From Candidatus Sumerlaeota bacterium (lineage in GTDB: Bacteria; Sumerlaeota; Sumerlaeia; JAFGJS01): DNA of 32,757 bases. Under the pieces are notes generated by a model. That model did no database searches and was not told the DNA's origin. It saw only the letters and a program-made list of their open reading frames with translations. Both the position numbers and the translations under genes were made by a program. Positions 112 to 32,558 of this stretch are shown piece by piece. The DNA lies in the NCBI GenBank assembly GCA_016928995.1, contig JAFGJS010000003.1:1-32757 (forward strand). Reading direction: 5' to 3'. Numbering within the stretch: the first letter of the stretch is position 1; each line of letters opens with the position of its first letter.

Positions 112-3100
112 CTAGTAAAGAACCCAATGGCCTGAGACTGAACTGCTTTCGTCGACGCTCAGGACCGTGATGTTCAATGTCGCGTCATCCTGGGCGCTTT
201 GGGAATCGGTGACGCGAACGGTAAAACTGTTGACGCCTGTATCTCCGCTGCCTGGCGTGCCGGAAAGCGCGCCATCGCTGGCGACGCTGAGCCATGAAGG
301 CCCGTCCACCTTGCTGAAGGTCAACGTGTCGCCTAAATCGTCATCAGCCGCATCGCCGGCAAGCGTTTGACCCGTGTAAGCCACGCCAACGGTCGCATAG
401 ACTTTGGCAACAGGATCGCTCAGCCAGTATGGAGAGCTGTTCGTGGCGATAACGGTTATATTCAATGTCGCTTCATCATAGTCGCCCTCGGAATCGGTGA
501 CGCGAACGGTAAAACTGTTGGCGCCTGCGTCTCCGCTGCCTGGAGTTCCGGAAAGCGCGCCGTCGCTGGCGACGCTGAGCCAGGACGCCCCGCTCACCTT
601 GCTGAATGTCAACATGTCGCCCGGATCGGAATCAGCCGCATCGCCGGATAGCGTCTCTCCCGTGTACGCCACAGCAACCGTCGCATCGCTCTTGGCGATT
701 GGATCGCTGATGAAATACGGCGCATTGTTGAGTTCTTCGCCATTCGCCAGCGTCGCCACGTCATCGGCGCTCAGCGCCTCAGAGTAAACGCGGAAATCGT
801 CGGCCAAACCATTGAGATAAGGATCGGTGGCAAAGATTGATTTTCCGATATAGCCCCGAGTAATGCTGCCAAGACTGGAGGGAGTGATTGTCATGGATGT
901 ATTGGAGCCGACGGGACTGCCATCGACATAAAGCTGGCCGGTGCTTCCGCTTAACGTCACAGCCACATGAATCCAACTCCCGCTGGAAAGCGCCGCTGTG
1001 CCGTTGATTTGCTCCTCATTGTTATATCCGGATGTTGTCATCGCAAAACGAATCGCGTTGCCGCCGGAATAAGGAGTCAGGAACATGTAACTCCCCGTGC
1101 TTGCGTCGGGCGTCGTGTCCGTGCCAAAATCAAAAACGCGCGTCCACATGGTGACGCTGTCCAGATACACCCAACCCGTGATCGAAAAATCAGTCAGATC
1201 GTCCAGCACGCCCTGGGAAAGTTCCACGTATTGCGAAGAAGCGGAAACCAGATGCACAGCGTTGTCCAGTTGTCCGGTTTCCCATGCGGGACTATTGATT
1301 GTGCCGGCGTCAAGACCGCGGCCGCTGGAATCGTATGCGACAGAACCCGAAGTCTCGTCGAACTTCAAGTGCATACGCAGCGTGGAGGGCGTGATAGCAA
1401 CCTCGGCAGAGTCGCCGCTCTCGCCCTGAGTATTGTTGCTGCTGACGACGTAATAGTAGGTCACGCCGTTGGTCAAACCAGTGTCGGGGTATGTCCTTAT
1501 CGTCAAATCGGAAGCGATGGTGGTGTATGGTCCGCCGCTTACAATGGCTCGCTTGACGTTATACGAATCCGCGGCATTGCCGGCGTCCCAGTTCAGGGTC
1601 GCTCCGCCGTCTTCGGGAATCCCTGTGACATTGTCCGGGGCTTCGGGATCAGGATAGACAAGCGCGGTCAATTCGGCGACGCTGAGGGCGCGGCTGTAGA
1701 TGCGCAGATCATCCAGCGCGCCATTGAAATAAGGATCGTCCCACTGCGATTTTCCAAGATAGTTCTGCGTCGTGTTGCCAAGGCTGGCGGGGTTGAGCGT
1801 CATGGAAGGATTGGAGCCAACCTGCGTTCCATTGATGTATAGGCGGCCGGTGCTTCCGCTCAATGTAACGGCGACGTGCGTCCAGACGCCGGCCGAGATG
1901 GCGGTGGAACTGTCGATCTGCTGCTCGCTCACCGAGGCGGTGCGGATGGCGAAACGCATCAATGCGGATGAGCCCGAGTATTGTGTCGTGAGGAACATAT
2001 AGTTGCTCGTGTCCGTGCCGAAATCGAAAATGCGCGGCCACGATTCGAAACTCGTCACATTCACCCAGGCGCAGATTGTAAAATCGCCCAAGCCGCTCAC
2101 CACACGTTCCGGCAGCGTGACGAATTGTGAAGAGCCGCTCGAAAAGGCAAGGGAGTTGCTCAACTCGCCCTCGCTCCATGCCGGCGAATTGATGAGGGCG
2201 CCATCCCAGGCGTTGCCGCTGGAATCCGAGGCTGCGTCGCCATCGGTTTCATCGAACTTTAACCAGGCGACCAGATCGGAAACAATCACGTCGGCCTCGT
2301 CAGAATCGTCGCTTTCGCCTAGTCCGTTGACCGCGCTGACCACATAAAAGTAAACAGTGCTCTCGTCTGCGGTAGTGTCCGAATAAACATCATCGGTCAC
2401 ACCCGTGGCAATCGTCGTGTAGGATCCGCCGCTCACTGTGGCGCGCTTGATGTTATAGGAATCGGCGTTGGGACTGGCGTACCCGCTTAAAACGACCACC
2501 GAGCCGCTGCGCGAGGCGTCAAGCCCCAAGGGAGCAATGGGCACGTTGTTCACGGTGATCTGAACTTCCGCAGTGTCCGTAGCGCCGCTTGGATCGGAGA
2601 CACGAATGACGAATTGATTCAAGCCGATGTTGGAATTGTCCGGGGCGCCGGAAAGCGTGCCGCCAGAGGCGACCGTCAGCCATTCAGGACCGCTGATTTT
2701 CGTAAAGGTCAGCGTGTCGCCATCATCGTCCGTCACTTCATTGGTGAGATTTTCTCCCAGCGTGCTGTAATCCACGTCCGGATCAATCGCGGAAAGGACG
2801 GTCGGCCTGGCGTCAAAGGCCGGCGCATTGTTGGCGCTGCCGCCCCACAGATCATAAATCTCGGCGCCGGTCAATCCACGCGAGTAGATGCGGAAATCGT
2901 CCAGCATGCCGTCCAGATAAGGATCATCGTCCGACTGGGACCGGCCAAGATAGTTCTGTTCCGTGTCGCCCAAATGGTACGGGCGCAATGTCATCGAGCT
3001 TGCCGTTCCTGTGGGAACGCCGTTGACGTAGATGATTCCCGTATCGCCGCTCAACGTAACGGCGATGTGCGTCCATGTCCCGGTCGGTATCGCCACTGTG

Positions 3101-5409
3101 CTGTCAATGATCTGCTCAACATCGCTAGCCGTGTAAAACTTGAAACGCGGATTACCGGAACTCGCTTCAGAGATCAGCGTCATGTAATAGATCTCGCTGT
3201 CGCCAAAATCGAAAATGCGCGTCCATATTTCGGAGCTGTCGAGATACACCCACGTGGCGACAGTGAAATCGTTGCATTGGCTGACCACGCCGGTCGTAAA
3301 CGAAACGTACTGGCTGCTCCCGTCAAGGTTCACCGCGTTGCCGATCATGCCGCTGACGAATGTGGCTCCGCCGGCAAGCGTGCCGTCCCAGCCATTGCCC
3401 GACGAATCGCTCGCCGTGACGCCGCTGGATTCATCGAACTCCAGATGCACATACGGACCGAATGTGCCTGACGTCACGGCTATCGCCTCGGATGACGGCA
3501 AGCCGGCGCCGGCAATGTTCAGCCCCTTCACGATGTAATAGTACGTCGTCCCCTCGTTCACATCATTGTCGGAGTAGTTCGTCGAAGCTGTTTCAGTGAT
3601 CGTCATGTACGGACCGCCGCTCTCTGTGGCGCGCCGCACCAAATAGCTCGTAGCACCGGCCGCCGCCGGCCAACTCAACGCCACGCTGCCCGTACTGGGC
3701 GTAGCGTTCAGACTCGCCGGCGTAGCGGGCAAACTCGTCGTCGCTAAGCCCTGGATCAAATCAATGCAGTCGAGACTATATCCAGCGCTTAAGTAACCCG
3801 TGCTTCCTGAACCGCTGATGGGGTAAACATAAAGCGTATTGGTTCCCGTGACCAGCGCACTGGCCGGCACGCTGAAAGAATAGATGACGTTGTTGCCTCG
3901 ATAGGTGCCGACTGTCAGCGTGCGGGTGTCAGGCTGGCTCGAAGGGCCTTGAAACGACGACGTCCACGAATTAACGCCGATATTCGGCCGGCCGCCTTCA
4001 TAGGCGCAGGTGATGCCCACGCGAAGGGCGCTGGCCACGACTTGACCGGCAGTGAGTGCGAACTGAATCGTTTGGGTGCCGTTGATATCCTTCCACTGAT
4101 AACACGGAATGCCTTCCGCGGCGGTTGAAGTCCCGACGACAAACGTCCCGGGATTCCAGCTCTCCATGCGCACATCCGACGGATGCATGATGTTGACTCT
4201 GTCGCCGTTGACAAATTCCCTCGGCGTGCCGTCCCATTCGCCGATCCGCCACAGCGGCGTGGTGAAAGCCGGATCGCTCGTGATGGCAATCGCGCTGACT
4301 GGCGTCGTCTGACCGGCAGTCACGGTGACGGTATCGGTGTGAACTCCGTATTCATTCTTATAAACGGTAAGCGTGTAGACGCCCGGAATCAGACCTTCCG
4401 CGTAAAACGAACCGTCAACATCCGATGCATCCGCCCAGTATTGAGCCGCGCTATTGGCAAATCTGACGGTGTAGTCGTAACGCGTGTCGCGTCCCGTGAT
4501 GCCGCCGCAATGCACGTTGCCGCGATCGGGGGCATCGACATAGCCGATCATCCCCATGCCGTTGAGCCAGGAAGAATCCACCGAATCCGGCACGGCTCCA
4601 TCCGTGAAAACCAAAGTATAGGAATTCAAAATATCCTTGCGCAGATCCTCGGTCTGACCTTCGCCATAGTTGATGATATAAGTGACCTCCTGATCGCTGC
4701 CGCCCTGATTCAGCAAACAACGATAAAAAGGACCGCCCGAGCCGCCCTCCTGATTGTCGCGCAACATCCACACCCCGACATGATCGCCGGTCGCCCCGAT
4801 GTAATCCCAATCCTTGAGGCGCATGTTGGAATAATGCTTTGAGCGCGTCTCGCCATTCGCCATGCCATAAACATCGGCCGATTCGATGGCCCCCGTGGTT
4901 CCGGTCAGGTCAGACGGCGGCGGACCATAAGGCAGATTGCTATACGGCATTCGCACGATGTAACGGCACAATCCGCCGCCTGTAATCGGCTGCGTGGTGA
5001 AGTAAGTGCCCATATAGATCTGCGGATAGCCATTTCGCGCAATGTAATAGTGCGTCAGTTCATCCGTCACAACCGTGATCTTGATGTGATCCGCATCCAC
5101 CACCTGTGCGCTGACGGTCACATTCGAGGTGTCGTACCCGAGCCAGTCAAAGCCGGAATTGATGTGCGAACCGCGGCTCTGATCCTGGTATTCAACACCG
5201 TTGTATACCAGGCTCATGATGTCGCCCGGAGACTGCGTGCTGGAACCGTAATCGACTCTGCGAATCTGGAAGACCAATCCAGCGTCAGTGTCTACGGTAT
5301 AGGCGTCAGTGCTGGTCGTAAGTCCAAAATCAGCAGACACCTGCATGGACGGCGCCATGCAAGCCATCAGGATTATAGCCAAAATAATGGTATAGTTAGA
5401 TTTCATCAT
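112..5409 (-). CDS. secreted modular rhamnogalacturonan lyase (PL4-like) with FN3, LamG and Ig-like modules
   Basis: The 1765-residue protein starts with a signal peptide (about 1-26, cleavage after VSA). Residues 27-555 resemble the three-part fold of PL4 rhamnogalacturonan endolyases: a beta-sandwich catalytic part, a small carboxypeptidase-like domain near 320-375, and a jelly-roll part opening with the PL4-typical PLWRIGEWDGTP stretch at 385-396. The enzyme would cleave the RG-I backbone of pectin by beta-elimination. The tail reads FN3 (560-648), LamG (653-857), Ig/cadherin-like (862-955), FN3 (957-1045), LamG (1047-1252), FN3 (1256-1343), LamG (1345-1555) and two Ig-like repeats (1562-1657, 1658-1753). 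PL4 enzymes are usually about 500-650 residues, so two thirds of this protein is accessory. Start: ATG-ATG at 5409 behind a GAGGGGTGG site. The C-terminus ends in GHWVLY with no recognised sorting signal. Catalytic residues were not verified. Confidence 0.85.
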   Translation of the reverse strand: MMKSNYTIILAIILMACMAPSMQVSADFGLTTSTDAYTVDTDAGLVFQIRRVDYGSSTQSPGDIMSLVYNGVEYQDQSRGSHINSGFDWLGYDTSNVTVSAQVVDADHIKITVVTDELTHYYIARNGYPQIYMGTYFTTQPITGGGLCRYIVRMPYSNLPYGPPPSDLTGTTGAIESADVYGMANGETRSKHYSNMRLKDWDYIGATGDHVGVWMLRDNQEGGSGGPFYRCLLNQGGSDQEVTYIINYGEGQTEDLRKDILNSYTLVFTDGAVPDSVDSSWLNGMGMIGYVDAPDRGNVHCGGITGRDTRYDYTVRFANSAAQYWADASDVDGSFYAEGLIPGVYTLTVYKNEYGVHTDTVTVTAGQTTPVSAIAITSDPAFTTPLWRIGEWDGTPREFVNGDRVNIMHPSDVRMESWNPGTFVVGTSTAAEGIPCYQWKDINGTQTIQFALTAGQVVASALRVGITCAYEGGRPNIGVNSWTSSFQGPSSQPDTRTLTVGTYRGNNVIYSFSVPASALVTGTNTLYVYPISGSGSTGYLSAGYSLDCIDLIQGLATTSLPATPASLNATPSTGSVALSWPAAAGATSYLVRRATESGGPYMTITETASTNYSDNDVNEGTTYYYIVKGLNIAGAGLPSSEAIAVTSGTFGPYVHLEFDESSGVTASDSSGNGWDGTLAGGATFVSGMIGNAVNLDGSSQYVSFTTGVVSQCNDFTVATWVYLDSSEIWTRIFDFGDSEIYYMTLISEASSGNPRFKFYTASDVEQIIDSTVAIPTGTWTHIAVTLSGDTGIIYVNGVPTGTASSMTLRPYHLGDTEQNYLGRSQSDDDPYLDGMLDDFRIYSRGLTGAEIYDLWGGSANNAPAFDARPTVLSAIDPDVDYSTLGENLTNEVTDDDGDTLTFTKISGPEWLTVASGGTLSGAPDNSNIGLNQFVIRVSDPSGATDTAEVQITVNNVPIAPLGLDASRSGSVVVLSGYASPNADSYNIKRATVSGGSYTTIATGVTDDVYSDTTADESTVYFYVVSAVNGLGESDDSDEADVIVSDLVAWLKFDETDGDAASDSSGNAWDGALINSPAWSEGELSNSLAFSSGSSQFVTLPERVVSGLGDFTICAWVNVTSFESWPRIFDFGTDTSNYMFLTTQYSGSSALMRFAIRTASVSEQQIDSSTAISAGVWTHVAVTLSGSTGRLYINGTQVGSNPSMTLNPASLGNTTQNYLGKSQWDDPYFNGALDDLRIYSRALSVAELTALVYPDPEAPDNVTGIPEDGGATLNWDAGNAADSYNVKRAIVSGGPYTTIASDLTIRTYPDTGLTNGVTYYYVVSSNNTQGESGDSAEVAITPSTLRMHLKFDETSGSVAYDSSGRGLDAGTINSPAWETGQLDNAVHLVSASSQYVELSQGVLDDLTDFSITGWVYLDSVTMWTRVFDFGTDTTPDASTGSYMFLTPYSGGNAIRFAMTTSGYNNEEQINGTAALSSGSWIHVAVTLSGSTGQLYVDGSPVGSNTSMTITPSSLGSITRGYIGKSIFATDPYLNGLADDFRVYSEALSADDVATLANGEELNNAPYFISDPIAKSDATVAVAYTGETLSGDAADSDPGDMLTFSKVSGASWLSVASDGALSGTPGSGDAGANSFTVRVTDSEGDYDEATLNITVIATNSSPYWLSDPVAKVYATVGVAYTGQTLAGDAADDDLGDTLTFSKVDGPSWLSVASDGALSGTPGSGDTGVNSFTVRVTDSQSAQDDATLNITVLSVDESSSVSGHWVLY
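151..726 (-). repeat. tandem duplication of a 96-residue Ig-like module (288-bp period)
   Basis: Within the PL4-like gene, two adjacent units of 96 codons are very similar in DNA as well as protein: blocks at 203 and 491 are offset by exactly 288 bp and share long identical runs. Each unit ends in a TLNITV strand. A more diverged single copy sits at residues 862-955 of the same protein, so the pair looks like a recent duplication. Confidence 0.8.
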
Positions 5410-24998: not shown

Positions 24999-25660
24999 CG
25001 CCACGGGAGTGGCGTGACAATGCTAGCTCCGGTTTTCAAACCGGGGTACGATGTCCTGATTATCAGCCGCGCCCCGGCAGGGGCGCGACAAGCGGAATCA
25101 ATCGAGAAAAAATCGCGAATCGTATTTGACGCCGTGTTTGATCAACAGCCCTTCGTATTCTTCCGCAAAACTGCGTTTGCGATGATGCTCCGCCTGGTTC
25201 TGTATGTACCGATATACGCGGTCCTGTTGGCTGTAGCTTACGGTGAACGCGCCATAACCTTCCTGCCACGCGAACTCCATGCGTCCGGTTTGATCGTGAT
25301 AATGCTTGGAGGAACTGCCCTTGATCGCCTGCACCACGTCGGCGACATCTGGTTTGGATTTCAAACGGCAAAGGATATGAACATGGTCGGCGGTTCCGTT
25401 GATGATCATCGCCTTCCCGCCATGATTAGCGATGATGCCGGCCATGTAGGGATAGAGCAATTTTTGGGTTTCGGCGTCGATGAGAGGTTGCCGGTGTTTG
25501 GTTGAGAAAACGATGTGATACAGCAGAACGGTGTAGGTGTGAGCCATGCGGCGCGCCTCGTGGATGGTTTTGTGGCGCCCCTGCCGGGGCGCGGAATGTA
25601 TTACGCCGGTTTACCCCGGTTTAAAAACCGGGGCTAGCATTGCTTTGTCCCTGCCGGGAC
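24999..25660. mobile_element. REP-like hairpins flanking a Y1 transposase gene (REPtron-like unit)
   Basis: Three hairpins lie left of the gene: 24999-25014 (CGCCAC-GGGA-GTGGCG), 25029-25044 (CCGGTTT/AAACCGG) and 25069-25086 (GCGCCCC-GGCA-GGGGCGC). Three mirror-image partners lie right of it: 25575-25592, 25614-25633 and 25647-25660. The left block 25018-25086 is an inverted copy of 25575-25642 including the CAATGCTAGC edge. The whole unit is thus a large palindrome with the transposase gene in the middle, the layout of RAYT/REP systems. Confidence 0.8.
25098..25547 (-). CDS. IS200/IS605-type Y1 (HUH) transposase, REP-associated
   Basis: The 149-residue protein is a single Y1_Tnp domain. The HUH metal motif is DHVHIL (His55, His57) and the catalytic tyrosine is most likely Tyr114 in YRYIQNQAEHH, within the C-terminal helix. 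These enzymes cut and join single-stranded DNA at hairpins with a 5'-phosphotyrosine intermediate. The gene looks intact: full length, ATG at 25547 with GAGG eight bases upstream, and both active-site motifs present. Mirrored REP-like hairpins on both sides suggest a domesticated RAYT-like role rather than a plain insertion sequence; no second orf (tnpB) is present. Confidence 0.9.
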   Translation of the reverse strand: MAHTYTVLLYHIVFSTKHRQPLIDAETQKLLYPYMAGIIANHGGKAMIINGTADHVHILCRLKSKPDVADVVQAIKGSSSKHYHDQTGRMEFAWQEGYGAFTVSYSQQDRVYRYIQNQAEHHRKRSFAEEYEGLLIKHGVKYDSRFFLD

Positions 25661-25749: not shown

Positions 25750-26895
25750 TCACGGGTGAGGTTTGTATTGATCGAGCAGACCGTAGAAGTCGAGGCCGAT
25801 GTAGCCGCAGATCAATACGAGCGAAATGAGGAAGAAAATCACGCAAAGGGCGGTGAGTTTGCGGCGAGCGCCGCGGATCTCAGGCTCGACGCTGTTGCGG
25901 GCCATCTGGGCGATTTCACTCTTGGCCTGCTCGCGGATGTAACGCGGGATGGTGGTGTTGATGGCGATCTCAAGCTGCCGGTCGATGATCTCAGGCAGGC
26001 GTTCGCGCGCGGCTTTCTGCACGGTTTTCTGCGCGACGGATTCAAACTGGCGCGACATTTCGCTGAAGAGCTCTGGCACGACTTCCTTGACGGCCTGCTC
26101 CATGCGTCCCTGAATTTCGCGCGGCAGCACGATCTCCAGGTTCTCCTTGACGCGGTCGCGGATCTGCGAGGGCAGCGTGCGCTCCACGGAACGCTTGACG
26201 GTTTTCTCGGTCACCTCGCGCAGGATGGTCTCGATGGCCTCGGCGACCTTGCGCTCGGCGAGTTTCTCCACCATGGACTTCGCGACTTCGTGCACGGTCA
26301 TGCGCACGAGTTCCTGCTCTTTTTCCGCGGTGAGTTGCGTGACGCGTTGATCCACTTCGACGGTCGCGCGCTGGTCGATCTTGGACACGACGTTCTGAAT
26401 GGCGCGTTCCACGATGAGCTGGGTTTTATTTTCAACGGCCTTGGAGATGTGCTCCTCGGCGAGTTGGCTCATTAACTTGTTCGCCGCTTCATCCAGGTAG
26501 GCGCGCGTCTTGATCTCCAGTTCGCGCTCCTCAATCATTGACCGGATCTTATGCACCAGGTTCGCCGGATCAAAAGGCTTTTTGATATAGCCGTTGGCCC
26601 CGCGCAATGGCGGATCGCTCCCCTTTTCAACCTCGGCCTCGTCCACGAGCAGCAGCACAAGAGTCTGGAATGTATCCGCGTCGGATTTCAGTTCGCGCGC
26701 GGTCGTATAGCCGTCCACGCCGTCCATGCCAGTGTCGAGAATCACAATGTCGAAGTCCTTGATTTCCGGACTGACGAGCGCGGACATGCCGTTGGACGCC
26801 GTGCGGACGCGATAACCGGCCTCGGCAAGGGTGTTCTGGGCAATCTCCTGGACCGCCGCGCTGGGATCGATAATCAGGATGCGTTCACCGGCCAT
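25750..26895 (-). CDS. receiver-domain protein with helical Pro-repeat region and C-terminal membrane anchor
   Basis: From the ATG at 26895, seven bases after the upstream stop, the protein has 381 residues. Residues 1-118 form a CheY-like receiver domain with phospho-acceptor Asp54 (ILDTGMDG) and Lys106 (KKPF). The usual acidic pair is reduced to one Asp (IIDPSA) and the beta-4 Thr/Ser is replaced (LLLVDEAE). Residues 120-345 are charged and helical, with hydrophobic-Pro turns at 242, 258, 274, 301 and 317, a spacing of mostly 16. One membrane helix (348-368) lies near the C-terminus, leaving about 13 residues outside. A cytoplasmic, membrane-tethered signalling adaptor is inferred. It is co-transcribed with the PATAN gene and probably works with the MglA-type GTPase. 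Confidence 0.85.
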   Translation of the reverse strand: MAGERILIIDPSAAVQEIAQNTLAEAGYRVRTASNGMSALVSPEIKDFDIVILDTGMDGVDGYTTARELKSDADTFQTLVLLLVDEAEVEKGSDPPLRGANGYIKKPFDPANLVHKIRSMIEERELEIKTRAYLDEAANKLMSQLAEEHISKAVENKTQLIVERAIQNVVSKIDQRATVEVDQRVTQLTAEKEQELVRMTVHEVAKSMVEKLAERKVAEAIETILREVTEKTVKRSVERTLPSQIRDRVKENLEIVLPREIQGRMEQAVKEVVPELFSEMSRQFESVAQKTVQKAARERLPEIIDRQLEIAINTTIPRYIREQAKSEIAQMARNSVEPEIRGARRKLTALCVIFFLISLVLICGYIGLDFYGLLDQYKPHP

Positions 26896-26902
26896 GTTCT
26901 GG

Positions 26903-28201
26903 TCATCCTTCCTGGCGGTCGATTTCGCCGCAAAGTGCGTCAATGCTGTATTCAGCGTTCATGTGCTCGCGATACTGCGAGCTGAAGGCGTCCTTGACAT
27001 TCTGCAGGAGTTTGCGCGTTTGCTTTTCACCGATGCAAGTGAAACACTCGTGGGTGATTTCGCGCATCAATCGCTGCAGGGCCTCCTGGGCGTCTTCATA
27101 GACGCCTTGCATGTTGTCGTTCTGATTATGAAAGCGGTTGTATTTCTCGAAAATTTCAGGACGTAGCCGATTATTTCGGGTGTAAAACAAATCCGCTCGA
27201 GGATAGATGTTTAAACATTCCCTCCAGATCGCATCCACCCAATGTCTCAACCGTATATCGCCGAAATCGCGATTCTTTTCGCATCCCTCGACATACTCAT
27301 TGATGAATCCGCACCAGATTCCAAGGGGCGAGGCATGACGCGGCTTGCGGCTGGTTGATCCGTTCTCCTTCCGCCCAAACAGGCTTCCCAGCGTCCATTC
27401 CCTGCGTTCCTGAACGGGCGCCTCAGTTTTCTCTTCTTCCTCAACCTCGTAGTTATCCGCATGGCAAGGAGAACGGGGCGTCTCTTCTTCGTCGAGGATT
27501 TCGAGAATGCGCGATTTGAGGAATGTGTTCAGGATGCGGTAGGTTTCAAACTTCCCCAGGCACGAGCGGCGGACAAGCGAACTCACAGTGTAGTATCCGT
27601 TGATCAGCGAGAGCACCTTCCATTCGTTCTCGGTGAGTGAAATGTCGCGCTCCCAGTTGGGCGGCAAGGGAGCGATGGTGATGACGGAATCGCTGGAAGG
27701 GATGTTGCCGCTGATGCGCTCCCATTCGTCGATGCGGCGCGTGCCTTCGATCAGCAGCGGCTCGATGTCGATCTCGATCACCACGTCGTCGATCTCATCG
27801 GGATCGTGATGTTCGAATTTGAAGTCCCCTTCATCCGTGTCGAAAAGTTTCCAGACCTCCTCCTCAAGTTGCAGTTTGATGGCCTGCTTGAGGATGTTGC
27901 GGTCGATCAATCCCTGTTCGATCAGCATCTCGCCGAGACGCTGGGTTGTGGCGGCTGCTTTCTGCTGATCCAGCGTGCGATCCAGCTGTCCGCGCTGAAC
28001 CAGGCCGCGATAGACGAGCATTTCGCCGAGTTTGAATTCGCGCTTCAGCGTGGAGGAATTGACGATGCGGCCGCGGAGGATATACAGGTCGATTGAATTG
28101 CCGGGCTGCTTGATGGATAGCGTTCCGGTCATCTTGCTCATCGCCAGGAATTGCAAGATTTCGGGGAGACTGAATGCCTTGAGACTGCCTTCAAGTTCCA
28201 T
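26903..28201 (-). CDS. DUF4388 (PATAN) domain protein with tandem MshEN-like motifs
   Basis: The 432-residue protein opens with the PATAN/DUF4388 pattern: LEGSLKAFSLPEILQFLAMSKMTGTL, then YILRGRIVNSS, and closing WKLFDTDEGDFKFE at 117-130. Between these halves lie two 24-residue units, 57-80 (KLGEMLVYRGLV start) and 88-111 (RLGEMLIEQGLI start), each ending in Gln. They fit the RLG-x2-L..G..L..Q pattern of c-di-GMP-binding MshEN domains. Residues 185-240 look like a winged helix (LTENEWKVLSLI, then YRILNTFLKSRIL). An acidic linker (240-270) leads to a helical C-terminal domain (295-425) I do not recognise. PATAN proteins often neighbour MglA-type GTPases and receiver proteins, as here. Start: ATG at 28201, GGAG ten bases upstream. 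Confidence 0.85.
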   Translation of the reverse strand: MELEGSLKAFSLPEILQFLAMSKMTGTLSIKQPGNSIDLYILRGRIVNSSTLKREFKLGEMLVYRGLVQRGQLDRTLDQQKAAATTQRLGEMLIEQGLIDRNILKQAIKLQLEEEVWKLFDTDEGDFKFEHHDPDEIDDVVIEIDIEPLLIEGTRRIDEWERISGNIPSSDSVITIAPLPPNWERDISLTENEWKVLSLINGYYTVSSLVRRSCLGKFETYRILNTFLKSRILEILDEEETPRSPCHADNYEVEEEEKTEAPVQERREWTLGSLFGRKENGSTSRKPRHASPLGIWCGFINEYVEGCEKNRDFGDIRLRHWVDAIWRECLNIYPRADLFYTRNNRLRPEIFEKYNRFHNQNDNMQGVYEDAQEALQRLMREITHECFTCIGEKQTRKLLQNVKDAFSSQYREHMNAEYSIDALCGEIDRQEG

Positions 28202-28356
28202 AGCGTGATTGCTCCGTAGCTCTGTCGAGCATGGCGCTATTGTTTCGACGGGATCTGAAATATTATCGCCAGCGTCATCTTGATCGCAATAGTGAAAATT
28301 ATTTTTTGTCAGCGCATAAACAAATGCAAAGTCAAAAACAAGAAAATGACACGCGT

Positions 28357-28388
28357 GACGCGAAAGATGGCCGCGTCTGTTTTTTTAT
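28357..28388 (+). terminator. possible plus-strand terminator
   Basis: Stem GACGCG/CGCGTC (28357-28362 with 28372-28377) is followed by TGTTTTTTTATA on the plus strand. No plus-strand gene is known upstream; it might end antisense transcription into the MglA-type gene. On the minus strand it lies just behind that gene but lacks a T tract. Confidence 0.35.
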
Positions 28389-29776
28389 AAGATGCTGGGC
28401 TTCCCTGCGGGCGTCAGTTTTAGTCCTTTAATCAACGCTTTCTGATAGATGTATATATTGCGGTCCATTGCATTTTTGACGTACACCGACACAGTGGGCT
28501 TGCGGGTTTGCCGATCCACCTCGTCCTCGTCGCCGTATATCAGGAATTGAGCGACGGCCGTGCTTTCCATCATCGGCTCCGATCCTGACTGCTTCAATGT
28601 ATAGTAGCAAGGTGTGCGCATGAAGCCGAAGGTGCGAATGTCTCCATTGAGCTGAAAACGCCGCGCGCCATTGTCGCCTTCCAAACTGAGAAATTCGATG
28701 CGCGCCGAGCCGATCCGCATGCCCAGCCAATGCACGTCGCATTTCTGCACGATATGCACCGGCGGCTCTTTCTTTTCGGGTTTCCTCTCCTCCGCAGGCT
28801 GCGACACGGCCATTGGTTGAGTGGAACTGGCGGGCTCCTCCATCACCGGTTCCTCGACCGGCCGCTCAATAACAGGGGGAATGACCGGCGGCGGAACGCT
28901 TTGCTCCTGGACTGGCGAAGGAACTGCATACTGCGGTTGCGGCGCCTGAGGGACGGCGGGGCGTGGCGGCTCTGGCTTCGGTTGCTGAGTGCGCCGAGGC
29001 TGCTGGGCTGCGACGCCTTGCTGAACTGCCGTGCGCGGCTGGCGCCGGATCTCTTCCATCTCCAGTTCGATGCCGTCACTGGCGCGCGACGGCGCCGAGG
29101 GCGGCGCTGAGGGCGACGCCAAGGGCGGCGGCTCGACTGACCGAGGCGCGGCAGATACTGGACTTTCTGACTCCGGACGCTGCTGCTCACCGTCCATCTG
29201 CTGCCGCAGTTTTTTCAATAACTTGACGCTGATCGACCGCAGCGTCTCGCGCACTCCGGTTCCTTCGGTGGCGATGGCCTCAAAGTAATCCACGCCCGGA
29301 TTGAGCGCCATCTGCAAGGCATCAACGTCCAAGCAGTTAGGCAAATCGCGCTTGTTGTATTGCATCACCCACGGAATCGAATCGAGATCATAGCCGAAGT
29401 CAGCGAGATTCTCGCGCAAATTGATCATGCACTCGCGATTCTCATCAAGACGCTCGGCTTGTGAGTCGGCGACAAATACGATGGCGTCCACATTGCGCAG
29501 GACGAGCTTGCGCGTGGCGTTGTAGAACACCTGGCCGGGCACGGTGTAAAGCTGAAATTTCGTCTTCATGCCTTGCACGTCGCCCAGATTCAACGGCATG
29601 AAATCGAAAAAGAGCGTTCGCTCGGATTCGCTCTCCAGTGAGACCAAATCACCCCGGAAACGATTGGGAATCTGCCCATGAATCACTTCCAGGTTTGTGG
29701 TCTTACCGCCTAAGCCCGGTCCGTAGTAAACAATTTTACATGAAATTTCATTAAAGGATCGATTGAGCGTTGCCAT
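28385..29776 (-). CDS. MglA-type small GTPase with Pro-rich linker and C-terminal domain
   Basis: With the ATG at 29776 (GGAG seven bases upstream) the protein has 463 residues. Residues 1-197 are an MglA-like Ras-family GTPase: P-loop GPGLGGKTT (19-27), LESESERTLFFDFMP (48-62), switch II region YTVPGQVFYNATR (77-89), NKRD (141-144) and a G5-like AIATEGTG (167-174). MglA sets cell polarity and drives motility in myxobacteria and others, and is normally about 195 residues alone. Here a Pro/Gln-rich linker (198-340) joins a beta-rich C-terminal domain (343-463) that I do not recognise. The gene heads a minus-strand set with the PATAN and receiver-domain genes; 183 bases separate it from the next. 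No MglB/roadblock gene is in the window. Confidence 0.9.
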   Translation of the reverse strand: MATLNRSFNEISCKIVYYGPGLGGKTTNLEVIHGQIPNRFRGDLVSLESESERTLFFDFMPLNLGDVQGMKTKFQLYTVPGQVFYNATRKLVLRNVDAIVFVADSQAERLDENRECMINLRENLADFGYDLDSIPWVMQYNKRDLPNCLDVDALQMALNPGVDYFEAIATEGTGVRETLRSISVKLLKKLRQQMDGEQQRPESESPVSAAPRSVEPPPLASPSAPPSAPSRASDGIELEMEEIRRQPRTAVQQGVAAQQPRRTQQPKPEPPRPAVPQAPQPQYAVPSPVQEQSVPPPVIPPVIERPVEEPVMEEPASSTQPMAVSQPAEERKPEKKEPPVHIVQKCDVHWLGMRIGSARIEFLSLEGDNGARRFQLNGDIRTFGFMRTPCYYTLKQSGSEPMMESTAVAQFLIYGDEDEVDRQTRKPTVSVYVKNAMDRNIYIYQKALIKGLKLTPAGKPSIL

Positions 29777-31430: not shown

Positions 31431-32558
31431 ATGCAAATTCCGCCAGAATTAATATTTGATTCGCTCCAGGATGGAGTTTTTGCCACAAACAAGGAGCGGG
31501 AGATTGTCTATTGGAACAAAGCCGCCGAACGCATCACGGGCTGGAAAGCCGAAGAAGTGATGGGCAAAGGCTGTTTCGACGGCTTCATATGTCATGTCGA
31601 TAAAGACATGAACATTTTATGCCGCCAGAAATCCTGCCCCTTGCATCGTTGCATCGAAACCGGAGAAGCTGAAAAAGTCCCGATCATCATGTTTTCCAAT
31701 TCGCGGGACGGACGGCGCGTTCCGCTGCATATCAGCGTATCGCCGGTGCGAGACAAAAAAGGCGAAATTATCGGCGGCGTGCAATTCTTTCGGGATTTAA
31801 GCGAGACCTTTAAAGATTTGATGCGCGCCAAGGCTATGCAACAATCAGTCATGAATATGTCCACGCCGAACGATCCGCGCATTCAAATCAACGTGCATCG
31901 CATTCCTTATGATATTGTGAGCGGAGACTTCTACAAGGTTCACAAGATCTCCGATGATCAATACGGCATCCTCCTGGCGGACGTGACGGGCAAAGGCGTG
32001 GCGGCGGCGCTATACACCATGTATCTCGACTCGTTGTCGAATCTGCACACGGACTGGTTCAAGCAACCCGACGTCTTGCTTTACGCCTTGAACCAAAGCC
32101 TGTTCGCGTTGCAGGAAGTGGAGCCTACCTTCGCCTCAGCCATCTGCGCCAAGCTGGATTTGTCGAAAAAAACCGTCGCCATCGCCAGCGCGAACAATCC
32201 CAATCCACTGTTATTCAAAACCAGCGGAAAAACCGAGGTGTTGAATATGTCCGGTCCGACTCTGGGGATGTATCTGGAATCGGATTACCGGACGGAAGTC
32301 TTCCCCATTGATCTGAACGACCATCTGTTGTTCTACACAAACGGAGCGATCGAAGCCGGCGGAATGCCGAAAAACGCCCTGCCCCCGGATAAACTGCTGA
32401 ACGTTTTATCGCAGATTGGCTATCCGCAGAAACAGAATGCGAATCTGGCCTATGTTGAAAAAGGTTTGCAACAGTTCCAGGAATCCATTCAATTATCTGA
32501 TGATCTCACGTTGATGCAAGTCGCCGTCAAGAATTTCACTGAAGCGCATCTACGCTGA
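31431..32558 (+). CDS. PAS-domain SpoIIE/PP2C-type phosphatase-like protein
   Basis: The 375-residue protein has an N-terminal PAS domain (1-125) with the Cys/His cluster GKGCFDGFICHVD..LCRQKSCPL often found in phosphatase-linked PAS domains, then a SpoIIE-type PP2C domain (150-368). Metal-site motifs are SGDFY (Asp166), LLADVTGKG (Asp184) and SDDLT (Asp357/358). The fourth acidic position, normally TDG, reads FYTNGAIE with Asn304. Such proteins remove phosphate from anti-sigma-factor antagonists in partner-switching circuits; no antagonist or anti-sigma gene is in the window. Start: ATG at 31431 with GAGG six bases upstream. The gene is divergent from trpS. Confidence 0.9.
   Translation: MQIPPELIFDSLQDGVFATNKEREIVYWNKAAERITGWKAEEVMGKGCFDGFICHVDKDMNILCRQKSCPLHRCIETGEAEKVPIIMFSNSRDGRRVPLHISVSPVRDKKGEIIGGVQFFRDLSETFKDLMRAKAMQQSVMNMSTPNDPRIQINVHRIPYDIVSGDFYKVHKISDDQYGILLADVTGKGVAAALYTMYLDSLSNLHTDWFKQPDVLLYALNQSLFALQEVEPTFASAICAKLDLSKKTVAIASANNPNPLLFKTSGKTEVLNMSGPTLGMYLESDYRTEVFPIDLNDHLLFYTNGAIEAGGMPKNALPPDKLLNVLSQIGYPQKQNANLAYVEKGLQQFQESIQLSDDLTLMQVAVKNFTEAHLR

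Follow-up and report, generated by a model that had tools for sequence, protein, structure and literature searches.

A conserved gene set for an MglA-type GTPase, a PATAN protein and a tail-anchored receiver protein in Sumerlaeota

An MglA-type GTPase, a PATAN (DUF4388) protein and a receiver protein are encoded by a set of genes that occurs across the phylum Sumerlaeota. We consider, with moderate confidence, that these genes specify a phylum-conserved signalling module whose role is to position or activate machinery at the cell surface, type IV pili being the most likely target. The module is delineated by the domains, motifs, transmembrane (TM) helix, gene order, conservation and joint absence reported below. 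The compact set described here, in which the gene order is fixed, the soluble parts are few and the TM anchor is single, would suit simple reconstitution of the link between MglA switches and c-di-GMP.

The gene set and its conservation

The analysis covered 32,757 nucleotides from an uncultured Sumerlaeota bacterium (assembly GCA_016928995.1, contig JAFGJS010000003.1, positions 1-32,757); this entire stretch is referred to as the window. Three open reading frames were confirmed on its minus strand:

28385..29776, minus strand: MglA-type GTPase with a linker and a C-terminal all-beta domain, 463 aa
26903..28201, minus strand: PATAN (DUF4388) protein, 432 aa, PF14332
25750..26895, minus strand: receiver protein, 381 aa, in which a receiver domain is followed by a long, conserved helical stretch and a single TM helix at the C-terminus

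The PATAN and receiver genes are separated by exactly 7 bases, as originally predicted (the PATAN stop codon ends at 26903 and the receiver gene starts at 26895), and the gap between the MglA and PATAN genes is 183 bases. The GTPase starts with the ATG at 29776, and its aligned orthologues begin at the same MATLN or a close variant of it. Counts of promoters and terminators at the set were the same as in shuffled sequences.

Conservation was assessed in a sample of 40 Sumerlaeota genomes (41 in the surveys of PilT and GGDEF). The PATAN gene was present in 36 of the 40 (35 clear cases and a contig-edge fragment in G011), and the receiver gene followed it on the same strand in all 34 genomes in which the neighbour was readable. 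The two proteins are ~25-50% identical among relatives, and the set occurs far beyond chance. A gene for a long MglA comes immediately before the PATAN gene, in the same orientation, in 18 genomes from 8 families (G000, G002, G003, G007, G008, G012, G015, G016, G021, G025, G026, G028, G030, G032, G034, G035, G036 and G038), and contig ends in G010 and G037 cut the locus in a manner that fits linkage. All three genes are jointly absent from G006, G014, G020 and G027. In a scan of 84,980 genomes with a tight alignment of PATAN orthologues (a first alignment was too diverse), which covers this orthologue family rather than PATAN proteins generally, the named matches were all from Sumerlaeota or BRC1.

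The original prediction took the three genes as one set and proposed a genome search for the trio; this search was run, and the genes are neighbours in most related genomes. The outcome that the prediction had named as refuting, genes not adjacent in relatives, was thus not observed, and a single set is well supported. The trio is not the whole set, however, but what remains of a longer operon that can encode as many as four roadblock proteins (see below), and its members are not equal. MglA is unlinked in f5 (the six genomes that have it), f6, G005 and G009, and the PATAN-receiver pair occurs without MglA in three f2 genomes and G039. Because MglA is thus unlinked or absent in several lineages, we regard PATAN-receiver as the invariant core and MglA as its usual, not obligate, partner. 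Loci L042 (G009) and L071 (G016) come from the same genus: in G016 MglA adjoins PATAN, whereas in G009 it is located ~9 kb from PATAN, on the other strand and at a contig end, owing to either an inversion or an assembly error.

These lineages bear on an alternative, namely that the locus holds two side-by-side units: a stand-alone PATAN-receiver unit for c-di-GMP and receiver signalling, and an MglA (plus roadblock) polarity unit, co-transcribed with it in some families only. This arrangement is possible, if somewhat unlikely. It would suit the absence of any MglA in f2 and G039, the location of MglA elsewhere in f5, f6 and G009, and the unequal gaps in the window (183 versus 7 bases), but it sits poorly with the upstream, same-strand MglA of 8 families, with the joint loss of all three genes in 4 genomes, and with the distinctness of the long MglA, which has a special C-terminal domain. 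Long and short, unlinked MglA proteins form two fully supported groups in a tree (100/100).

Domains and motifs of the three proteins

Within the three proteins, the following features were delineated:

29201..29776, minus strand: MglA GTPase domain, residues 1-192, with P-loop GPGLGGKTTN, Arg finger R53, TVPGQ with Q82, and NKRD
28757..29200, minus strand: Pro/Ala-rich linker of the GTPase, residues 193-340, pLDDT mostly 36-60, aligning poorly among orthologues
28409..28756, minus strand: C-terminal all-beta domain of the GTPase, residues 341-456, 8 strands in the AlphaFold model
27869..28033, minus strand: MshEN-type c-di-GMP motif pair within the PATAN domain, residues 57-80 and 88-111
27476..27718, minus strand: winged-helix-like domain of the PATAN protein, residues 162-242, from the model and a structure match
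26906..27334, minus strand: C-terminal helical domain of the PATAN protein, residues 290-432, from the model and alignment
26542..26880, minus strand: receiver domain, residues 6-118, with D54 and K106 kept and the Thr/Ser switch residue missing
25792..25848, minus strand: C-terminal TM helix of the receiver protein, residues 350-368, strongly hydrophobic, followed by a short tail

The predicted GTPase with an added C-terminal domain was borne out. Residues 2-192 match the solved MglA structures 6h17, 6hjh and 5ymx (E ~3e-67 in a PDB sequence search), and the top rows of Foldseek and VIA for the full-length model, in which the GTPase part is of low confidence, were all MglA. The active-site motifs (R53, Q82 and NKRD) are intact. 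R53 directly precedes the conserved switch-I Thr of G2 (R53-T54) and is invariant in the orthologue alignment; a motif scan recovered the Arg finger in 20 of 25 long-MglA sequences, the other five, from f5, having different letters around it. TVPGQ is present in G3 of all 25. The Arg finger and TVPGQ are marks of the Group 1 MglA that Wuichet and Sogaard-Andersen defined (PMC4316618), and by these motifs the GTPase domain belongs to this group. Its architecture is a variant one, with 463 residues and a C-terminal domain where single-domain MglA proteins have ~195 residues.

The C-terminal domain was modelled with a pLDDT of 75-94 in most 10-residue blocks (lowest, 68), and its profile matched in 25 of the 40 Sumerlaeota genomes. 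It had no convincing Pfam match (at most one alignment member per family) and no PDB sequence match, and we classify it, from its sequence, as an undescribed accessory domain. A resemblance to DUF3108 noted by eye was dropped, as PF11306 had no match in the window's genome and the Pfam comparison was unconvincing. Because the unlinked f5 copies of MglA fall in the long group of the tree and carry the beta domain, the fusion of GTPase and beta domain is probably old. The MglA of the window is the only one in its genome. Most relatives have, elsewhere, a second, short MglA gene followed by an MglB-like gene (L086-L099), which is absent from the window's genome; the G3 motif of these short proteins is GVPGQ or AVPGQ and their P-loop falls outside the GxGxxGKTTN pattern.

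The PATAN protein was correctly named in the original prediction, scoring 106.3 bits with PF14332 (gathering score, 25). Its modelled alpha/beta core is split by four helices (residues 58-120, between strands 45-51 and 126-131), i.e., it has the alpha-helical insertion in the core that is expected of PATAN. The c-di-GMP-type motifs also predicted for this protein were recovered within the insertion. Two 24-residue tandem motifs both fit the relaxed c-di-GMP motif pattern applied in searches by those who discovered MshEN (PMC5013675), and NCBIfam model NF053729 for the c-di-GMP motif scored 39.7 over residues 57-111 (cut-off, 38). A PATAN profile compared with the PDB matched PilF, PilB and MshE (best E, 1e-16), and the modelled insert superposes on c-di-GMP-bound MshE (5htl) with a Z score of 9.8 and an rmsd of 1.4 over 61 residues. 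The strict MshEN pattern does not fit: motif I starts with KLG (motif II with RLG) and the spacer is 7 rather than 5. We call the insert MshEN-like, without classing it as MshEN, and the protein is a putative c-di-GMP receptor. Both relaxed motifs occur together in 8 of 36 family sequences, including that of the window; elsewhere in the family, motif II frequently begins with Leu or Met or has its turn Gly replaced. Because both motifs fit in only these 8, c-di-GMP binding may vary between lineages. The window's genome has four GGDEF domains. G027 is the only one of 41 genomes without a strong GGDEF match and also lacks all three set genes; in f7 genomes, the set is absent and GGDEF is present.

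Structure matches to the C-terminal helical domain of the PATAN protein were weak (Z of 5.0 or less). The best structural matches to its winged-helix-like part were five entries of the GATOR1/SEA complex (SEAC and KICSTOR-GATOR1), with Z scores of 8.5-9.3 over 71-73 residues, 7-10% identity and Foldseek E values of ~0.9-5. The matched chains may be NPRL2/NPRL3-type subunits, which act on Rag GTPases. Because winged helices are common, we treat this resemblance as a lead only.

The receiver protein scored 65 bits with Response_reg. Of 33 orthologues, 31 retain the phospho-acceptor D54 and 32 retain K106; the second acidic residue is absent from many, and in all 33 sequences a residue other than Thr/Ser occupies the switch position, a departure from canonical response regulators. 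These features make classical phospho-signalling by the receiver possible but doubtful. Most of the invariant columns of the protein lie beyond the receiver domain, at residues ~146-260. A match of this helical region to DUF445 (30 bits, below the cut-off of 33.8) was taken as general helical resemblance. Each of the 32 full-length orthologues has a single TM helix close to its C-terminus; the tail anchor, which had been predicted for the window's protein, is therefore a family trait. A link between GTPase state, phosphorylation and second messenger at the membrane had also been suggested. The anchor and the c-di-GMP motifs are real, and phosphorylation is the weakest part of such a link, because no receiver of the family has the Thr/Ser switch residue.

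Roadblock genes in the larger operon

In several families (e.g., at loci L044, L048 and L051), the operon has the order TPR plus roadblock, four-TM plus roadblock, roadblock, MglA, roadblock, PATAN, receiver. Up to four roadblock-type (MglB-like) proteins thus surround the long MglA (L041, L044, L048, L051 and L053). Pfam identified the roadblock domain in the two small proteins and, for some members, in the TM protein as well; profile comparison supported it for the TPR protein (at the C-terminus; E, 3e-6) and for the four-TM protein (E, 7e-7). A roadblock gene separates MglA and PATAN in 16 of 18 linked loci, the exceptions being the window and G016.

The window's genome (92.5% complete) yielded no roadblock protein with Pfam, a profile of MglA-linked roadblock proteins or a profile of the TM-roadblock protein. 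The window fully covers the set locus, which lacks roadblock genes, and no remnants of one were found between MglA and PATAN. The lineage of the window has lost the roadblock genes of this operon, although a copy may lie elsewhere, in the missing 7.5% of the genome. The window's MglA is the longest branch of the long group (0.75) and differs at 6 sites that are invariant in the rest of the 25 sequences, two of these (49 and 51) being located just before the Arg finger; G016 has five such changes and all others have three or fewer, these counts being small and undercounting families with several sequences. The altered sites in the window and G016, both without an adjacent roadblock gene, would be consistent with a modified GAP interface. 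Some lineages have as many as four roadblock genes and this one has none, a contrast that amounts to a natural experiment on GAP replacement.

The roadblock loss, the long branch and the altered sites could also mean that the window copy is decaying and that its GTPase is no longer a regulated switch, and an IS200/IS605-type transposase gene (window 25098-25547) adjoins the set just downstream of the receiver gene. We consider decay very improbable, given that the three frames are open and of full length, that no damage is seen in the catalytic residues of the GTPase, in D54/K106, in either c-di-GMP motif or in the TM helix, and that Bdellovibrio MglA works without MglB (PMC3983030). Another explanation is that the roadblock has been dispensed with and that the beta-domain MglA is gated directly by a membrane-tethered, c-di-GMP-reading PATAN-receiver complex. 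If true, this would be a bacterial small-GTPase circuit regulated by a receptor for a second messenger rather than by an MglB-type GAP; we judge it quite unlikely.

Possible function and relation to known systems

Complex formation, c-di-GMP binding, membrane recruitment and pilus output are the steps that we infer for the phylum-conserved module. MglA would serve as a GTP/GDP switch, and the receiver protein would be a membrane-bound scaffold whose receiver domain faces the cytoplasm. The PATAN protein, carrying the MshEN-type motif pair, would be the obligate partner of the receiver protein, and the pair at the membrane would bind c-di-GMP and recruit, or be recruited by, MglA-GTP, the contact with MglA being made through the GTPase and/or beta domain. 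Once assembled, PATAN-receiver and MglA may act on pilus ATPases in the manner of cyanobacterial PATAN regulators and Myxococcus MglA partners. Roadblock proteins would tune the GTPase in a GAP-like fashion in most families keeping the linked set, and in the window's lineage MglA may run alone or under PATAN-receiver control, the roadblock having gone as MglB has in Bdellovibrio. This mechanism is proposed because of the analogies with Myxococcus, Synechocystis and Bdellovibrio, the phylum-wide occurrence of pili and the four GGDEF domains. Points against it are the non-obligate status of MglA, the receiver without Thr/Ser, and the departures from the MshEN motif, with both motifs present in 8 of 36 sequences.

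PilT-family ATPases were found in all 41 genomes, and one study reported type IV pilus systems in all of its Sumerlaeota MAGs (PMC8092238). Nothing points to the gliding motility mentioned in the original prediction; the system for surface motility that occurs throughout the phylum is the type IV pilus (PMC8092238). The presence of PilT was considered as a discriminating test of a pilus role and proved uninformative: because genomes without the module (f7 and G027) have it too, PilT does not single out pili. The same occurrence of pilus ATPases in module-free genomes would be compatible with a non-pilus target, e.g., envelope growth, the cell division site or a secretion system, with MglA as a general membrane-positioning switch, and the winged-helix-like domain of the PATAN protein makes another scaffold or regulatory role possible. 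Known MglA, PATAN-receiver and MshEN proteins, however, usually have type IV pili or related ATPases as their targets (PMC11580455, PMC5013675 and PMC9090330), and we view a non-pilus target as unlikely.

Several parts of the proposed module have counterparts in known systems. Neighbourhoods of MglA and PATAN genes in other organisms are already known and were reportedly noted by Makarova in 2006. Group 1 and 5 MglA genes are 'occasionally' found next to PATAN genes, as described by Wuichet and Sogaard-Andersen in 2014 (PMC4316618). In Sumerlaeota, by contrast, the association is phylum-wide and extends to a receiver partner with a tail anchor and to a larger operon with roadblock genes. A literature search found no paper joining DUF4388 with MglA. 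Three papers mention MshEN as well as PATAN, and one of them (PMC9090330) treats the two as separate proteins. Four features of the present set are new: the all-beta domain of the GTPase, the occurrence of an MshEN-like insertion in this setting, a partner that is tail-anchored and an operon that spans the phylum.

Group 1 MglA proteins of Myxococcus, Thermus and Bdellovibrio share with the window protein the Arg finger beside the switch-I Thr, TVPGQ, NKxD and the best PDB matches (PMC4316618), whereas the window protein adds the linker and a 115-residue all-beta domain and had no roadblock partner found in its genome. In Bdellovibrio, MglA acts in the absence of MglB and alongside a response-regulator protein and a c-di-GMP receptor at the pilus pole, where it affects pili (PMC3983030). 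This MglA/RomR/CdgA/TPR hub combines the same three kinds of component, the receptor role being putative in Sumerlaeota, but it uses a degenerate GGDEF receptor and RomR in place of a PATAN protein with an MshEN-like insert and a tail-anchored receiver. In Synechocystis, PATAN and receiver domains also occur together, in PixE, PixG and LsiR, which act on PilB1 (PMC9090330 and PMC7690835); PMC9090330 describes interaction of such PATAN-receiver regulators with PilB1. There they form one polypeptide, whereas in Sumerlaeota they are encoded by two adjacent genes and the receiver is membrane-anchored.

Myxococcus MglA, with SgmX and FrzS, recruits PilB (PMC11580455). FrzS, an MglA-associated protein with an N-terminal receiver without critical residues and a long helical C-terminus (PMC11580455), is, like the FrzS/AglZ-type pseudo-receiver partners of MglA as a group, similar to the Sumerlaeota receiver protein by published description only; no TM anchor is described for FrzS, whereas the Sumerlaeota protein is anchored and keeps D54 and K106. 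Actinobacterial conservons are likewise operons that join an MglA-family GTPase, a roadblock protein and signalling proteins (PMC4316618), but they involve a different MglA group, and no histidine kinase or CvnC was found among the conserved neighbours of the Sumerlaeota set.

Other genes of the window include one for a PAS and SpoIIE-type phosphatase protein (31431-32558, plus strand), which is located beyond trpS and is not a conserved neighbour of the set. A 1765-residue protein (window 112-5409) contains rhamnogalacturonan lyase, LamG-type and several Ig/cadherin-like domains, and further carbohydrate-active genes of the window are of the GH31 and GH16-like types.
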